Positions 3-7,921 of a DNA stretch of 41,765 nt are shown here, one piece after another. This stretch comes from Minisyncoccota bacterium (GTDB lineage Bacteria; Patescibacteriota; Minisyncoccia; Phycocordibacterales; UBA12079). Position 1 is the first letter of the stretch, and every line of letters starts with the position of its first letter. The stretch spans positions 1 to 41,765 of the forward strand of contig JAGLSI010000003.1 in the NCBI GenBank assembly GCA_023135835.1, in the 5' to 3' direction. The notes beneath the pieces were generated by a model that saw nothing but the letters and a program-made list of their open reading frames with translations, made no database searches and was not told the DNA's origin. The position numbers were made by a program, and so were the translations under genes.

Positions 3-3000
3 AACGTCGGGATTGGGACGACTGCCCCTGATGGTAAGTTGGAGGTTTATGGAGCTGGGCAACTTGTTAGTGATTTAACAGATGCAGGAAGTAGAGATAA
101 TATGCTAATGATTAATTCATCAGGAACTTCTGGTGGAAGTGGTGGAGCTTTGGTTTTTGGTAATAGTCAGTCTAAGACAGCAGATAGTCTTGGTTGGGCT
201 GCTATAAAGGCTCATTTAACAAATGGTTCTGGTAATACTGTTGGTAATTTAACATTCTCTACAAGAAACTCCACTTCAGATACAGCATTAACACAAAGAA
301 TGACAATTTTATCTGGGGGTAATATTGGAATTGGTGTATCATCTCCATCTCAACAACTAGAAATAACAGGGGATTTTGAATTACCAAATACGACTCACGC
401 TGATGAATCAGGAATAATTTATAAAGGTACAAGCCCGTTTATTCATAATTTTAATTATGGAGATAATGGATCAGTTACAACTGTTGGTGGAAATACTTTT
501 GTGGGTGTGGATTCTGGTAATTTTACAATGGGATCAACGGCGGTTTCAGCTCTTTCTGCTAGTTATAATACAGGGGTAGGAGAAGATTCTTTAAAGTCTT
601 TAACATTAGGATATGGAAATACAGCGTCGGGTTATAATTCTCTTGCTAGTAATACTACGGGAAGTCTTAACTCTGCATTAGGATATTATGCTCTTTTTGA
701 TAATACTACTGGTAATTATAATACAGGGGTAGGAACTGAGTCTCTTGCTAACAATACTATAGGTGATTCTAATACTGCTATAGGAAATAATTCTCTTTGG
801 AATAATGTTGATGGTTCCAATAACTCTGCTTTAGGTCATAGTGCTCTTGTTGGTAATGAAGATGGTGATCTTAATATTGCCATAGGGTATGATGCAGGTC
901 ATTATTATGGAGATTATGCAATGTCAAATACTTCTGGAAATAAAAATATATATTTAGGAGTTCAGACTAAGTCTGCAGGATATGATAAAGAAAATGAGAT
1001 TGTAATTGGTTATACTGCTGAAGGTATTGGCTCTAATTCTGTCGTTTTGGGAAATGAATCTATTACGACAACAGCTTTGAGAGGTAATGTTGGAATTGGA
1101 ACAACTGATCCAGGGGCGAAAACAGAAATTTATCAAGCAATGTCTGATTATGGTTCTGCATTTACTTCACCCCACTTAAATTTGGGGGCAAGCAATACTG
1201 TAGATAATACTGGTTTTGTTGGAATTACTTATGATACGAGCGCTACTGCTAATTATGGTTGGTCATCTGGGGCTTTGAGGAGTTCAAGTGGGCAAGGAGA
1301 TTTTGTTTGGAAATTCCATAGTGCTAGTGCCGTAGGTAGTGAGTTAATGAGAATAACAAGTACAGGCAACGTCGGGATAGGGACTACTGATCCAGTGTCA
1401 GTGCTTCATATTAAAGATACTACATGGACTAATCTATCTATAGAAGCCACCTCTGATGATCCATCATTGCAATTAACATCAGATGGAAGTGGTACAAGTA
1501 ATGACTGGACAATGCGCATGGATGTGTCAGATTCAGATAAACTTCAATGGCGCTATGATGGTACGAAAAAGCTTACAATAACTAGCCCTGGTCAACTAAT
1601 AATGACAAACGACAACTGGCTTTCAGCTGATAATAATGCCGGAACCGACTATGTAAATATGTTCAAGGTAAATACTAGTGATGAAATAGATGTTGGAGCA
1701 ACCTTAAATGTCGGAGCGATGGAATTCTCTGAAGATAGTGGATTTGTAACTGCCATGGATATGCCAGTTTCATCTACACCAACAGCTGGAGATATAGAAG
1801 CTTATGCCTTTAAGGTTGATGGTGATAATATTTTAACTGTTTATGCTGAAGCTGATGGAGCAGGAGGTATTCAAAATGCAAGAGTTGGAATTGGGGATTC
1901 CTCTCCTTCATACCAATTAGAATTATCAACAGATTCCGCTGCAAAACCAGGAACTAGCTCATGGACAGTTTCCTCTGATGAAAGGCTAAAAGATGTTAAT
2001 GGTGATTTCACTAGAGGATTAGATGCTTTGTCTGGACTTTACCCTTCTTACTTTAATTATAAAACAGACAATGATTTAGGGATTCCTAGTGATAGAGAAT
2101 ATGTTGGATTGATTGCTCAGGATGTTCAGTCTGTGATTCCTGAAGCTGTAAGAGAAGGAAAAGAAGGATTTTTGTCTATTGAATCAGATGCTATTTTCTG
2201 GACAATGTTGAACGCTATTAAAGAAATTGGTTTGAAAGTTGGTTCTGATAACATTACTTATACACGAGATACTCTGCAGGTTTTGAACGGAACAGGAGAA
2301 CCGCAAATGAAATTGGCTTATGATGAGGAAAACTTAGCAGAGTTTAATGTATCGGCTGTAGGTGATTTATCTTTGAGTACAGCTGGAAAAGATATTCGGT
2401 TACCAGATGATAATTTATCGGTTTGTTCGGGAGGAGCTTGTTCTTCAGCAGCTTCTTTGATTGAGGGAACTGGTAATTTGGTTGTAGAAAATGTGGCTTA
2501 TATCGCTGGTTCTCTAGGTGTTGGGACAGCTCAACCTAGCCGAGGGTTAGATGTTTACGAGTCTCAATCAGACCCTCAATTTAGAATTTCTTATGACGAT
2601 GATTTGTATTCTGAATTTAATGTTTCTGCCACTGGAGATTTAATAATTTCTGCTGAAGGAGGAGACATCTCTGTTTTGAATGAGAATTTACGAGTTTGTT
2701 CAGATGAAGGTTGCCCTTCTATCGCAAGTCAAATTAAAGATTCTGGTAATTTAGTAGTAGAAAATTCATTGCTAGCTTTAGGAAATGTTGGAATAGGAGG
2801 AACGATTTCTCCAGATTATACATTAGATGTTCAAGGAACTCTACGAGCCTATGGAATTACTGATGCTTCAGATGCTCGTCTAAAAACCAACATCCAACCA
2901 TTAATTCACTTGGGGGTAGCACCCCCAAGTGAAGGGATTTCTGCTACCTTAGAGAATGTTAAAAAATTACGAGGAGTTACTTTTGAATGGAAGAATGAAG

Positions 3001-3314
3001 ATTTTGGAACAGGAATTCAGATTGGAATGATTGCTCAAGAACTAGAAGAAGTTTACCCAGATTTGGTTTCAACAGATGATAGCGGGTTTAAATCAATTCA
3101 ATATGGTAAATTTACAGCAGTTCTGTTAGAAGCAGTTAAAGATTTAATTAATTTTGGAGAAAAAATTGAATATAGAAGTGCAAGATTAGAAAATAGAACA
3201 GCAGAATTGGAAGAAAAAAATATTGAACTTGAAAAACAGGCAGAAAGTTTAGAGCAGAAAACTCAGACATTAGAAGCTCGGATAGAAGCTCTAGAAAATA
3301 TACTTCGTCAGTAA
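3..3314 (+). CDS. Large fibre/adhesin-like surface protein with YadA/Hep_Hag-like head repeats and two S74 (intramolecular chaperone/endosialidase tail) type domains; 5' end outside window
   Basis: Frame is open upstream of the listed TTG start (NVGIGTTAPDGKLEVY, matching later GNVGIGTTDP repeats). Repeats such as NTASGYNSLASNTTGSLNSALGYYAL. SDERLK...YVGLIAQDVQSVIPEAV and SDARLKTNIQPL...IGMIAQELEEVYPDLV S74-like segments. C-terminal coiled coil. Confidence 0.85.
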   Translation, partial: NVGIGTTAPDGKLEVYGAGQLVSDLTDAGSRDNMLMINSSGTSGGSGGALVFGNSQSKTADSLGWAAIKAHLTNGSGNTVGNLTFSTRNSTSDTALTQRMTILSGGNIGIGVSSPSQQLEITGDFELPNTTHADESGIIYKGTSPFIHNFNYGDNGSVTTVGGNTFVGVDSGNFTMGSTAVSALSASYNTGVGEDSLKSLTLGYGNTASGYNSLASNTTGSLNSALGYYALFDNTTGNYNTGVGTESLANNTIGDSNTAIGNNSLWNNVDGSNNSALGHSALVGNEDGDLNIAIGYDAGHYYGDYAMSNTSGNKNIYLGVQTKSAGYDKENEIVIGYTAEGIGSNSVVLGNESITTTALRGNVGIGTTDPGAKTEIYQAMSDYGSAFTSPHLNLGASNTVDNTGFVGITYDTSATANYGWSSGALRSSSGQGDFVWKFHSASAVGSELMRITSTGNVGIGTTDPVSVLHIKDTTWTNLSIEATSDDPSLQLTSDGSGTSNDWTMRMDVSDSDKLQWRYDGTKKLTITSPGQLIMTNDNWLSADNNAGTDYVNMFKVNTSDEIDVGATLNVGAMEFSEDSGFVTAMDMPVSSTPTAGDIEAYAFKVDGDNILTVYAEADGAGGIQNARVGIGDSSPSYQLELSTDSAAKPGTSSWTVSSDERLKDVNGDFTRGLDALSGLYPSYFNYKTDNDLGIPSDREYVGLIAQDVQSVIPEAVREGKEGFLSIESDAIFWTMLNAIKEIGLKVGSDNITYTRDTLQVLNGTGEPQMKLAYDEENLAEFNVSAVGDLSLSTAGKDIRLPDDNLSVCSGGACSSAASLIEGTGNLVVENVAYIAGSLGVGTAQPSRGLDVYESQSDPQFRISYDDDLYSEFNVSATGDLIISAEGGDISVLNENLRVCSDEGCPSIASQIKDSGNLVVENSLLALGNVGIGGTISPDYTLDVQGTLRAYGITDASDARLKTNIQPLIHLGVAPPSEGISATLENVKKLRGVTFEWKNEDFGTGIQIGMIAQELEEVYPDLVSTDDSGFKSIQYGKFTAVLLEAVKDLINFGEKIEYRSARLENRTAELEEKNIELEKQAESLEQKTQTLEARIEALENILRQ
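2905..2933. repeat. REP-like palindrome copy 1 (core AGC), inside the S74 protein CDS
   Basis: ttcacttgggggt-agc-acccccaagtgaa, 13-bp perfect arms. Confidence 0.9.
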
Positions 3315-3326
3315 TTCTAATAATTA

Positions 3327-3353
3327 CTACTTGGGGGTAGCACCCCCAAGTAG
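3327..3353. repeat. REP-like palindrome copy 2 (core AGC), between S74 protein and RAYT
   Basis: ctacttgggggt-agc-acccccaagtag. Confidence 0.9.
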
Positions 3354-3373: not shown

Positions 3374-4114
3374 ATGAGAAAAACAATAATATACAGAAAA
3401 AACGAATATTATCACATTTATAATCGGGGAGTTGATAAGAGAATTATTTTTACAGATAAATTTGATTTGCAGAGATTTTATCAAAGTATGGAAGAATTTA
3501 ATTCTGTTGAACCAATAGGGAGTATTTTTGAAAATCGTTTTAATTTAAAAAACAGAAAAGAATCGCTTGGGGGTGCTACCCCCAAGTATGGGAAATTGGT
3601 GGAAATTGTGGCTTATTGTTTAAATCCTAATCACTATCATTTAATACTAACTTCTTTAGTTGAAGGTGGAATAAGTGAATATATGAGAAGACTTAATTCT
3701 GGATATACTACTTATTTTAATCAAAGATATAAAAGAACAGGTTCATTATTTGGAGGAACTTTTAAATCTGTTTATATTAATTCAGATTCTTATTTAAGAT
3801 TTTTAAGTGTTTATGTAAATTTAAATTTTGAAGTGCATCAAAAGTTTCAAAATGTTAAAGATAAAAAATTATTTCATAAATCTAGCTGGGACGAATATAT
3901 AAAAGTTAAAATTATAAAAGGAAAAAGAGGTGAAGAGAATCAAGTCATTAATAATAAAAATGATATTTGTGATAAATCAATGATCTCGTCTCATTTTGAT
4001 TCAGTAGATCAGTATAAAAAATTTGCTTTAGAGTCGTTAAAGGACATAAAAGCAAAAAGATATAAAGATAGTGAGGTTATTAAGAAAACTTTTGAAACAA
4101 GTAAAGGGTTTTAA
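3374..4114 (+). CDS. REP-associated tyrosine transposase (RAYT), Y1_Tnp/IS200-like HUH family
   Basis: YHIYNRGVDKRIIF start, HUH-type motif CLNPNHYHLILT, and GYTTYFNQRYKRTGSLFGGTFKSVYI, all typical of Y1_Tnp RAYTs. Associated with palindromes. Confidence 0.9.
   Translation: MRKTIIYRKNEYYHIYNRGVDKRIIFTDKFDLQRFYQSMEEFNSVEPIGSIFENRFNLKNRKESLGGATPKYGKLVEIVAYCLNPNHYHLILTSLVEGGISEYMRRLNSGYTTYFNQRYKRTGSLFGGTFKSVYINSDSYLRFLSVYVNLNFEVHQKFQNVKDKKLFHKSSWDEYIKVKIIKGKRGEENQVINNKNDICDKSMISSHFDSVDQYKKFALESLKDIKAKRYKDSEVIKKTFETSKGF
3566..3586. repeat. REP-like palindrome copy 3 (core GCT), inside the RAYT CDS
   Basis: cttgggggt-gct-acccccaag, read in frame as LGGATPK. Confidence 0.9.
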
Positions 4115-4115
4115 A

Positions 4116-4142
4116 TTACTTGGGGGTGCTACCCCCAAGTAA
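4116..4142. repeat. REP-like palindrome copy 4 (core GCT), immediately 3' of RAYT
   Basis: ttacttgggggt-gct-acccccaagtaa, starts 1 bp after the RAYT stop. Confidence 0.9.
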
Positions 4143-4162: not shown

Positions 4163-7100
4163 ATGAAAAAAATATTTAAAATAAATACATCAATATCGGT
4201 AATAATTGTAGGAATTTTATTTTTCTCTAGTATTGCTTGGGCGGCTATTTTTTATGGAATAGTAGCTGATTCTAGTGCTAGTTTGGTTGGGCATTGGCCT
4301 TTAGATGAAGGGAGTGAGAAAGGTTTAACAGGATTTTATGATCTTTCTGTAGCTTCTCATGATTCTGTTTTTAGCACAACTAGTCAAGATCAGGAGACTC
4401 ATGGACTTGCTTTTAATACTGATGGAACAAAAATGTTTATTGTGGGTATGACTAATGATAGAGTTTATGAATACCATTTAACCACAGGCTTTGACGTTTC
4501 TTCAGCTTCTTATGATTCGTATTATCAGATTCCTGGTGTATCCTTTCTTGTTAACCCTGTGGGACTTGCTTTTAATACTGATGGAACAAAAATGTTTATT
4601 GTTGATATTTATTATAATAATGTAAGTGAATATCACTTAACCACAGGTTTTGACGTTTCTACAACTTCTTTTGATTCAGATTTTGATGTTTCGGGAGAGG
4701 ATGGAAATCCTACGGGGGTTACGTTTAATATTAATGGAACAAAAATGTTTGTAACTGGCGTTGAGAATGATAATGTTTATGAATATCATTTAACTACTGG
4801 TTTTGATGTTTCTACAGCTTCTCATGATTCAAGTTTTGATATATCAGGGCAGGATGATTATCCTGAGGAACTTGTTTTTAGTGCTGATGGTTTTCAAATG
4901 TTTGTTGTAGGAAGTGGTGACTTTGAGGTTAACGTATATGATTTAGGGGCAGCTTTTGATGTTTCTTCTGCTTCGTATAGTTCTGTTTTTAGTGTATCTG
5001 GTGAAGACACAGACCCTAGAGGAATTGCTTTTAATTTAGATGGATCAAAGATGCTTCTTGTTGGTGAAACTGATGATGATGTTAATGAATATCATTTTAC
5101 TTTATCTATGGTTGTGGCTGACAAAACCGCCAACGAAAACCACGGTGAAATTTACGAAACCGCCTACACTACCGACCACATGGGACAGGCTAATAAAGCG
5201 ATGATTTTTGATGGGGTGGATGATAATATTATAATTAGCGATATTGATTTTTCTGATGAGATGACTGGGTCAGTGTGGGTAAAATTTGATGAAGTGTCTA
5301 GTCAGCAGATGGTAGTTTCACAATCTACTGTTTTGGAATATCAATTACAAATGAGAGGTAGTGCTGGGAGTGAATATTTTAGAATTAGGGTGGATACTAA
5401 TGGCGGGAATGGAATTGCAGATTCAACAACACGGGCTATTGCAGATCAATGGTATAATATTACTTGGACCTATGATGGTTCTGATTTGAAAATATATGTT
5501 GACGGAGTATTGGAAAGTACTAATAGTGATGCCTCGGGGAACATAGATGATATTAATGAGAACGTGGGGATCGGCGCTAGAAGTAATGGAGATTATCCAA
5601 CGGACGGTTCCATTTCCGATGTCCGTATCTACGATAAAGCTCTTAGTGCTAAAGAAGTGACAAGTATCTACGAACAATATCGTCCAAAAACACAATTTAG
5701 CACTCGGCAAAAAGGTTTGGTAGGACATTGGATGTTGGATTCAGAGAGTGAAAAAGTGGGAGATAATATTAATGATAATGGTGATTTTGAAACTGGTGAT
5801 TTAACTGGATGGTCGTATTGGTTTAATTCTGCTAATGGTGCCGCGGGGAGTGGGTCAATTGATTCTTCTGAATATTTTGGTGGGTCGTATAGTGGAAAAA
5901 TAAATATTACTAATGGTGGTGGTGCTATTGGTGATATTAATTTTTCTAATAAATATTTTACAACAGCAACGAGCACTGTATATCGCTTGTCTTTTGCAGT
6001 TAAGGCTGATTTTACTCCAACAGCTCCTTTTTCGGCGCGTATTATAAAAAATACTGGCCCATACACAAATTGTGGTTTAATAGAAGATATTACTCCAACT
6101 TCAGAATGGCAGACTTATGATTATACTTTTGATGCAACTTACGGTTTTACAGATGATGTTAGAGTTATTTTTTATTTAGGAAATATTGGTATAGGTAATA
6201 TTTATTTTGATAATGTTTCGTTTAAAGAAGTGAGCATTGCCGACAAAACCCCAAATGAAAATCATGGTGATGTTTATGGTGCTGTTTCTACCACCGACCA
6301 AATGGGGCAAGCTGACCGAGCGATGGTTTTTGATGGAACAAATGATTATGTAGAAATTACCGATTCAACAGATTTTGATATTGATAGTAATGGTTTTACA
6401 TATACGGCTTGGATAAATGGGACTGATTTTACTCCAGCTTATAATATGTTTATGGGGCATTATCTTCCTTATTTTAATGTTAGGAGTACTGGAAAATTAC
6501 ATCTTAGTGTTCATGACGGAACTCAAAGGTCTTGTTATGGCAACACTGTTTTAGATACGGATACTTGGTATTTTGTTTCAGCTACTTATGATAGTGATGG
6601 ATATATGAGAGTCTTCGTAAATGGAGAACAAGATGGAATAGCTGGTCCTTATTCTGATTTAGTTAATTCTTCTTCTCATCAGTATATTGGACAATGGTAT
6701 AATACTGGTACTTATAAGTTTACAGGTTCAATTTCTGATGTGCGTGTTTATAATTATGCTTTGGATTCAAGTGAGCTTGAAACCCTTTATCATTCTTATC
6801 GTCCAAAAATATCTTCTGGGTCTTTGCAAAAAGGTTTGGTTGGACATTGGCCTTTAGATGGGGAGAGTGAAAAGGTAGATGATGATTTGCTTGCTAATGG
6901 AGATTGTGAGATAGCTAAACCAACTTTAAATAGTGCTAGTTCAGGGGCTAGAGCTACGACAGCTCTTTCAAGTACAGAAGCTTTTTCTGGAGTTTCTTCA
7001 ACAAAACTAACTTTAACAGAAGATACTACAGCAGGATTTTATAATATAGGTGCTTATAATTTAAATAACCTAACCCCCGGAAAAACATATAGATATTCAG

Positions 7101-7921
7101 GGTATGTTTATATTCCTTCTAGTGGAGGTGTTTCTACATCGGCTTTTTTACAGTTTTACGATTATAATGGAGCTTATTCTGCTCAAACTCAGACTATAAC
7201 AACAGAAGATGAATGGGTACCCTTTTCTATAACAAGAACAATAAGAAGTGATGCAACTATGGCTTTTGTTAGAGTTAGTGGGAGTGGTCTTAATACTGAA
7301 TATTTATATTTTGATAATTTATCTTTGCGAGAAGTTGAGACTAGTGATAAAGGAGCTTACTCAAATCATGGTGAGGTTTATGGACCAACTTCAACAACAG
7401 GAATAAATGGAGAAACTGATGGAGCGATGAGTTTTGATGGGACTGATGATTATATTAATATGGGGAACGAGGCAAGTTTTCAGGTAACAGGAAGCCAGAC
7501 TATAAGTATGTGGCTTTATCCAGATAACTTTTCTGCAAGAAGGAACCCTCTTGCCAAGGCCTATGGGGGAGAAGGAACGATTACACAAGAAACAGACGGA
7601 GATTTAAGTTATTATTATGGAACAGCTGGTAGTAATACGACCCCTTATCAAGGATTTAGAACTACTTCACCCTTAACTTTAAATAACTGGAATCATATTG
7701 TTCTAACTAGAGATTTAGACAATATGGTTTTGAAATGGTATTTAAATGGTGCAGAAATTACTTCAACCACAGCTCTTTATTCTTATGCCACAGCGTCATC
7801 CCTTGATTTAAAAATTGGTGATGGATATACATCTAATTATGCTGGAAAAATTGCCAATGTTCGTATTTATAATCGAGCTTTAAGTGATGAAGAAATCGCA
7901 TTACTTTATTCTAGAAAATAG
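4163..7921 (+). CDS. Secreted multi-domain protein: N-terminal beta-propeller-like repeats plus three LamG/concanavalin-like domains
   Basis: N-terminal signal/TM. Repeats FNTDGTKMFIVG...YEYHLTTGFDVS. Three LVGHWPLD...AMIFDG...ISDVRIYDKAL LamG signatures. Confidence 0.85.
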   Translation: MKKIFKINTSISVIIVGILFFSSIAWAAIFYGIVADSSASLVGHWPLDEGSEKGLTGFYDLSVASHDSVFSTTSQDQETHGLAFNTDGTKMFIVGMTNDRVYEYHLTTGFDVSSASYDSYYQIPGVSFLVNPVGLAFNTDGTKMFIVDIYYNNVSEYHLTTGFDVSTTSFDSDFDVSGEDGNPTGVTFNINGTKMFVTGVENDNVYEYHLTTGFDVSTASHDSSFDISGQDDYPEELVFSADGFQMFVVGSGDFEVNVYDLGAAFDVSSASYSSVFSVSGEDTDPRGIAFNLDGSKMLLVGETDDDVNEYHFTLSMVVADKTANENHGEIYETAYTTDHMGQANKAMIFDGVDDNIIISDIDFSDEMTGSVWVKFDEVSSQQMVVSQSTVLEYQLQMRGSAGSEYFRIRVDTNGGNGIADSTTRAIADQWYNITWTYDGSDLKIYVDGVLESTNSDASGNIDDINENVGIGARSNGDYPTDGSISDVRIYDKALSAKEVTSIYEQYRPKTQFSTRQKGLVGHWMLDSESEKVGDNINDNGDFETGDLTGWSYWFNSANGAAGSGSIDSSEYFGGSYSGKINITNGGGAIGDINFSNKYFTTATSTVYRLSFAVKADFTPTAPFSARIIKNTGPYTNCGLIEDITPTSEWQTYDYTFDATYGFTDDVRVIFYLGNIGIGNIYFDNVSFKEVSIADKTPNENHGDVYGAVSTTDQMGQADRAMVFDGTNDYVEITDSTDFDIDSNGFTYTAWINGTDFTPAYNMFMGHYLPYFNVRSTGKLHLSVHDGTQRSCYGNTVLDTDTWYFVSATYDSDGYMRVFVNGEQDGIAGPYSDLVNSSSHQYIGQWYNTGTYKFTGSISDVRVYNYALDSSELETLYHSYRPKISSGSLQKGLVGHWPLDGESEKVDDDLLANGDCEIAKPTLNSASSGARATTALSSTEAFSGVSSTKLTLTEDTTAGFYNIGAYNLNNLTPGKTYRYSGYVYIPSSGGVSTSAFLQFYDYNGAYSAQTQTITTEDEWVPFSITRTIRSDATMAFVRVSGSGLNTEYLYFDNLSLREVETSDKGAYSNHGEVYGPTSTTGINGETDGAMSFDGTDDYINMGNEASFQVTGSQTISMWLYPDNFSARRNPLAKAYGGEGTITQETDGDLSYYYGTAGSNTTPYQGFRTTSPLTLNNWNHIVLTRDLDNMVLKWYLNGAEITSTTALYSYATASSLDLKIGDGYTSNYAGKIANVRIYNRALSDEEIALLYSRK

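Follow-up and report, generated by a model that had tools for sequence, protein, structure and literature searches.

In-frame REP-like palindromes inside RAYT genes of Patescibacteria: recurrent positions and concerted sequence turnover

Several described systems resemble the locus considered here. In subclass 2.4 of TnpA-REP, known from Cyanobacteria, Bacteroidetes, and other hosts, REPs lie inside the tnpA-REP gene with the frame intact, generally between the HUH motif and the Tyr (beta3-alphaC) (Quentin et al. 2018, PMC6006769). REPs also occur in frame in housekeeping genes, with truB a repeated target (Di Nocera et al. 2013, PMC3733652), and Rickettsia palindromic elements (RPE), as cited in the latter paper, have spread in frame through the protein genes of a reduced genome. 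The REPINs and group 2-3 REPtrons of E. coli, Pseudomonas, and Stenotrophomonas combine a single RAYT with inverted REPs and dispersed, non-autonomous copies that form short-loop hairpins (PMC3116915, PMC8266576). With regard to how REPs spread, the "dissemination mechanisms are poorly understood" (PMC8266576). In the literature searched, we found no paper that makes a substantive connection between RAYTs or REPs and Patescibacteria.

The window, that is, the whole 41,765-nt stretch of a contig analyzed here from the Minisyncoccota (Patescibacteriota), which are ultra-small bacteria, encodes a Y1 HUH protein that we identify as a RAYT (table 1). It scores 31 bits against the Pfam Y1_Tnp model (E=3e-7; cut-off 23), and its AlphaFold2 model (pLDDT 87.7) has as its top structural match 4ER8 (E=1.1e-5), a complex of E. 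coli TnpA-REP with a REP hairpin. This match came from a fold search; a search for solved relatives by sequence alone returned none. As the protein reaches only 19 of 80 bits with NCBIfam REP_Tyr_transpos, it is a distant member of that family. H87, H89, Y147, and N151 are invariant in the 54 sequences of alignment A2, giving an HUH motif with a single Tyr and a third metal ligand four residues on. In the manner of RAYTs, an inverted pair of palindromes flanks the gene, and further copies are scattered over the genome. We did not find the autonomous multicopy element with LE/RE hairpins that characterizes IS200/IS605, the window RAYT being single-copy and its four other matches being more distant RAYTs or pieces. 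Directly downstream, at 4163-7921, lies a gene with 153-nt repeats, whose 1252-aa product has LamG-like domains and a weak match to Pfam Toxin_R_bind_N that probably reflects only a shared lectin-like fold.

Table 1. Features of the RAYT locus, in window coordinates
Feature	Position	Strand	Evidence or remarks
ORF with C-terminal Peptidase_S74 domain (chaperone of endosialidase)	39..3314	+	PF13884, E=2.9e-29; hosts the copy at 2908
Palindrome in the S74-domain neighbor	2908..2930	+	In frame, LGVAPPS
Palindrome UP, 5' of the RAYT start	3329..3351	+	23-nt core; pairing reaches 27
RAYT (Y1 HUH, REP-associated tyrosine transposase-like), 246 aa	3374..4114	+	Pfam Y1_Tnp, fold
Palindrome in the RAYT coding sequence, site P1	3566..3586	- (AGC-loop strand)	Residues 65-71, between helix 51-61 and strand 76-83
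HUH motif H87-Y88-H89	3632..3640	+	H87 and H89 invariant in alignment A2
Y motif Y147-VNL-N151 (Tyr, +4 Asn)	3812..3826	+	Invariant in alignment A2
P2 loop, after the Tyr helix and before SSW	3839..3877	+	Palindrome in 36/70 homologues; none in the window RAYT
Palindrome DN, just 3' of the RAYT stop	4118..4140	-	Inverted relative to UP

The initial annotation held that this RAYT carries its own REP-like palindrome in frame just before the HUH motif, and the sequence bears this out. The internal palindrome, CTTGGGGGTGCTACCCCCAAG, has perfect 9-bp arms around a 3-nt loop, occupies exactly seven codons of the ORF (LGGATPK, L65-K71), and is the same sequence as that at both flanks of the gene. Identical 21-mers lie at 2909-2929, 3330-3350, and 4119-4139, which makes four copies within 1.2 kb around the RAYT; these three extend to 23 nt (ACTT...AAGT), whereas the copy within the RAYT pairs over 21 nt, with G before and T after. 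As single-stranded DNA the palindrome folds at -9.9 kcal/mol (z = -4.4). The local RNA fold over the 101 nt around the internal copy is no better than that of shuffled sequences (z = -0.84), by which a strong local RNA hairpin is rejected. Dinucleotide shuffles of the window yielded no match to the palindrome, and chance is rejected as the origin of the pattern by these shuffles together with the genome search and the synonymous null described below. The annotation had also suggested a tolerant loop as the site of the insert, and modeling agrees: no internal part of the AlphaFold model is less ordered than P1 (mean pLDDT 51 for residues 61-70, below 50 for 65-67), and P2 comes next (about 75-78), which fits tolerance of inserts at both.

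The 572.6-kb genome contains 13 identical copies of CTTGGGGGTGCTACCCCCAAG, nine of them beyond the four in the window; a search for variants with one or two mismatches found none, and a reversed control gave 0. Nine of the 13 are in frame in long ORFs, the other four being intergenic, two of them at the flanks of the RAYT. The hosts are the S74 protein, the RAYT itself, Fmt, Tgt, MiaA, a GT4-like glycosyltransferase, a TruB-like protein, RsmA, and an M23 peptidase-like protein in which the copy is near the N terminus. Fmt, Tgt, MiaA, and RsmA score above their NCBIfam cut-offs, the TruB and M23 matches fall below, and the glycosyltransferase is assigned in generic terms. The 21-mer is free of stop codons in five of its six reading frames, and the resulting peptides are of three types, LGG[SA]TPK, LGVAPPS, and WGCYPQV. 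The more general pattern ACTTGG-N11-CCAAGT occurs 62 times in the four genomes of the genus (0 control matches), and 14 of the 17 distinct sites read fall in ORFs. The tetranucleotide GT[AG]G was found at the foot of the hairpin in none of the 13 copies on either strand.

Two other RAYTs in the same genome have their own, different palindromes at UP, P1, P2, and DN: CAGCGCTCCAAGCGCTG in the RAYT on contig C15 (L011), and CTTAGTACCNNNGGTACTAAG at all four sites of a third, which seems to be broken across an end of contig C18 and one of C15 (L174, L176). Palindrome-rich RAYT loci may break assemblies. The CAGCGCTNNNAGCGCTG family (CAGCGCT) of the C15 RAYT occupies 22 places in this genome (G000), mostly intergenic, with 3 of 21 distinct copies in ORFs. 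Further ACTTGG...CCAAGT families are found at C12:26027, C30:37305, C31:935 and 969, and C34:21177, where one site has ACTTGGAAACCCGGTTTCCAAGT, the very palindrome that sister species G003 has in truB, and four have ACTTGGTAACTTGATTACCAAGT. Palindromes also lie in frame in genes that by sequence resemble those for NAD-dependent DNA ligase (L060, about 1.7 kb from a RAYT), MurB (L205, G003), and enolase (L209, G001).

We gathered RAYTs from the order and from GTDB genomes and parsed them by motif, obtaining 78 distinct sequences, mostly from Paceibacteria/'Parcubacteria'. Perfect palindromes (arms of 8 or more) were scored in the pre-HUH loop (P1) and between the Tyr helix and SSW (P2), with synonymous recoding under pooled codon use as the null. 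A P1 palindrome is present in 45 of the 78 (null mean 2.7, maximum 7) and a P2 palindrome in 36 of 70 (null mean 0.7, maximum 3). At least one internal palindrome occurs in 61 of the 78 and none in 17, and palindromes flank the gene at UP in 65/78 and at DN in 64/78. The initial annotation had expected that homologues would lack exactly this segment. This holds for some that have a short P1 loop and no palindrome (L026, L035, L042, and L049) and fails for the 45 with a palindrome there. The LGGATPK peptide in non-palindromic codons, which would have counted against the annotation, is not what the homologues encode; most hold a different palindrome that matches their own flanks. The similarity of internal cores to their own flanks is 0.952 (P1) and 0.968 (P2), against 0.514 and 0.601 to the flanks of other genes, a match that 0 of 10,000 permutations reached, although these permutations ignore the relatedness of the RAYTs. 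Relatedness is in itself informative, in that more closely related RAYTs have more similar palindromes (Mantel r = 0.47 with RAYT identity, 0/2000). One palindrome is common to three sites in 33 genes and to four sites in 12, and 45 genes have the same palindrome at no fewer than three sites, one of them internal. The 206.6 kb of flanking DNA examined (42 loci) yielded only 10 additional members of the family, and the RAYT gene itself is therefore strongly enriched. The UP/P1/DN architecture is also found with unusually long palindromes, of 46-52 nt, in two homologues (L125, L131; GCACTTAGGGACTAAGTCCCCAATTGGGGACTTAGTCCCTAAGTGC). A single insertion event is rejected, as different palindromes recur at P1 across homologues. 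The initial interpretation of an element in a loop of its own transposase is upheld in that the palindrome is the RAYT's own and lies in such a loop, and gives way in that this is no isolated insertion: comparison of the homologues indicates that the internal palindrome is a recurrent feature of conserved position whose sequence turns over in concert.

The turnover is seen between sister RAYTs. The C15 RAYT and L057 are 77% identical, form a clade with 100/98 support, and both follow pyrG; yet the former has CAGCGCTCCAAGCGCTG and the latter TAGACATCSGATGTCTA at all of its sites, and the two are wholly different. The window RAYT and its ortholog in G002 (L054 = JAHITU010000002) are 74-76% identical and share the core GGGGTGCTACCCC, with an outer arm of CTTG in the one and AGTA in the other at UP, P1, and DN alike. 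A third supported clade (L031/L032/L108) has three palindromes, and each is the same at UP, P1, and DN. These sequence comparisons indicate that the palindromes of sister RAYTs are replaced together at all sites, that is, by concerted replacement.

Orthologous sites in other genes also differ among the sister species. In G003, AACCACTTGGAAACCCGGTTTCCAAGTGGTT occupies the truB site and AACGTGGAAGCCCGGCTTCCACGG that of the glycosyltransferase gene; other near-perfect palindromes are present at the tgt site of G001 and the miaA site of G002, the S74 site in G002 has two others, and those of tgt in G003 and M23 in G002 are weaker. M23 and miaA in G003 look by eye like decayed remnants, and no palindrome of note was seen at the fmt and rsmA sites in G001-G003 or at the S74 site in G003 and G001. 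The palindromes of G002 differ from each other, yet nearly all are perfect. Clean empty sites of 21 or 24 nt were sought in G001-G003, and most proved not to be clean, owing to loop variation or to another palindrome already in place. Orthologous sites are often equal in length, as at fmt, and not shorter by 21 or 24 nt. The clearest contrasts are the S74 site, 30 nt shorter in G003, the rsmA site, 6 nt shorter, and pyrG beside L057. In the genome of the C15 RAYT this CTP synthase gene contains a palindrome, GDKNSAPSAANKSKGGKN, inserted in frame (L011 1227-1250), and its counterpart beside L057 (1211-2857) is empty (ELKGHPFF) and 16 residues shorter at the insert site. In truB (L007 3999; L138/L197) the pairing extends into host codons, with AATC/GATT in the genome's own gene and AACC/GGTT in G003, compensating changes that give the appearance of flanking sequence being corrected by hairpin templating as well.

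In-frame REPs in tnpA-REP, intragenic REPs, and RPEs are precedents, and the kind of element seen here is thus already known. The likeness to subclass 2.4 lies in REPs at the gene flanks and in frame in a peripheral variable loop of the transposase. As judged from the published description of that subclass, the present RAYTs are set apart by their occurrence in Patescibacteria, by a Y motif of YVNLN rather than YIxNNP, and by palindromes that lie before the HUH motif and after the Tyr and have no GTAG foot, in contrast to inserts that are generally between HUH and Tyr and have GT[AG]G feet; our control segment, the 190 nt from the HUH motif onward, had palindromes in 3/78 homologues against 3.3 expected. 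For the present RAYTs, matching to a gene's own flanks and concerted swaps are shown as well. Intragenic REPs are likewise in frame in tolerant loops and include truB among their targets, but they belong to GTAG/CGTC-tagged, mostly intergenic families (PMC3733652), whereas the present family is tag-less and, unlike REPs in general, which are mainly extragenic, lies chiefly in genes. RPE-1 is longer, and the parts of the literature considered here give no link between RPEs and a RAYT, in contrast to a perfect hairpin of 21-23 nt adjoining its cognate RAYT. In REPINs and group 2-3 REPtrons the copies are extragenic, the GTAG foot is essential or contributing, and the literature examined reports no copies inside their own RAYT. 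What is new here is the use of two positions outside the HUH-Tyr interval, the lineage, and the whole-gene swaps of palindromes; the intragenic predominance and the quantified matching to a gene's own flanks are further differences.

We favor as probable the hypothesis that these loci constitute a REPtron of Patescibacteria, in which a RAYT and its cognate non-autonomous hairpin of 21-23 nt are partners and the hairpin is mobilized or exchanged into tolerated loops, those of the RAYT's own gene included. By analogy with TnpA-REP and the TnpA of IS200/IS605, the RAYT would cut and rejoin single-stranded hairpins (PMC8266576, PMC6006769) and would thereby copy or exchange its palindrome into targets, of which in-frame arrivals in tolerant surface loops would survive. 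Older palindromes would be preferred landing places, where hairpin may replace hairpin in place with the frame kept, and the RAYT's own gene would be the richest target because no other target lies closer to the source and because it offers two tolerant loops. The evidence for this hypothesis is all comparative, and we infer the exchange step from it. The missing GT[AG]G foot and the blurred insertion boundaries count against it. The blurring arises from sequence of similar length that is already present at most orthologous sites, and insertion and conversion of existing sequence would both fit such boundaries. Independent insertions that recur in permissive loops could also mimic exchange in place. 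A further proposal, which we put forward tentatively and with more doubt than confidence, is that RAYT specificity shifts and the new hairpin then overwrites older ones at the flanks, in the two loops, and in core genes, without ever shifting the frame. Such a process would amount to a frame-preserving homing of 21-nt elements, with the internal copies as a built-in record or control of specificity.

That palindromes keep to just two loops in most RAYTs could also reflect functional selection. The internal hairpin might serve the RAYT gene itself, as a site of self-repression or attenuation acting in mRNA or ssDNA, or as a mark that couples the specificity of the enzyme to its substrate. The initial annotation had set such a role in self-recognition or autoregulation beside mere tolerance, and a regulatory role is possible given the 61 homologues with flank-matched palindromes at two fixed positions, the sharing of one palindrome among sites within 45 genes, and an occupancy per RAYT gene far above that of neighboring DNA. 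We nevertheless regard this explanation as unlikely, since 17 of the homologues do without an internal palindrome, unrelated enzymes accommodate identical hairpins in frame just as well, the RNA of the region folds no better than shuffles, and the enrichment is likewise predicted by local hopping combined with tolerant loops.

Less probable still, and in our judgment a poor candidate, is that host processes such as template switching in hairpins and short-patch gene conversion keep the palindromes perfect and alike, with the RAYT a bystander. The pairing that runs with compensating changes into the truB coding sequence and the mutually different, nearly all perfect palindromes of G002 would suit such processes. 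Template switching, however, perfects arms and does not import a foreign 17-nt core at three to four sites of one gene, and 21 bp is short for RecA conversion. Palindrome identity moreover follows the particular RAYT, as shown by three families beside three RAYTs in one genome. That the LGGATPK peptide is the conserved entity and the palindrome a by-product of codon use can be dismissed as having next to no chance of being right, for although Gly/Pro-rich peptides (LGGATPK, LGSSTPK) recur, homologues encode unrelated peptides at P1 from DNA that is palindromic in every case (SRGATPT, CSAPSAA, LSTRGTK, NLRGPTSQI), synonymous recoding falls far short of the observed count, and the same DNA is read in other frames in other genes.

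The presence of these palindromes in the translation-related genes truB, miaA, tgt, fmt, and rsmA raises the question of why minimal genomes tolerate them. Under the REPtron hypothesis favored here, the RAYTs of Patescibacteria would offer dozens of natural enzyme-substrate pairs in which the substrate is written inside the gene of the enzyme and sister pairs differ by complete swaps, and thus a ready series for the study of RAYT specificity and hairpin exchange.
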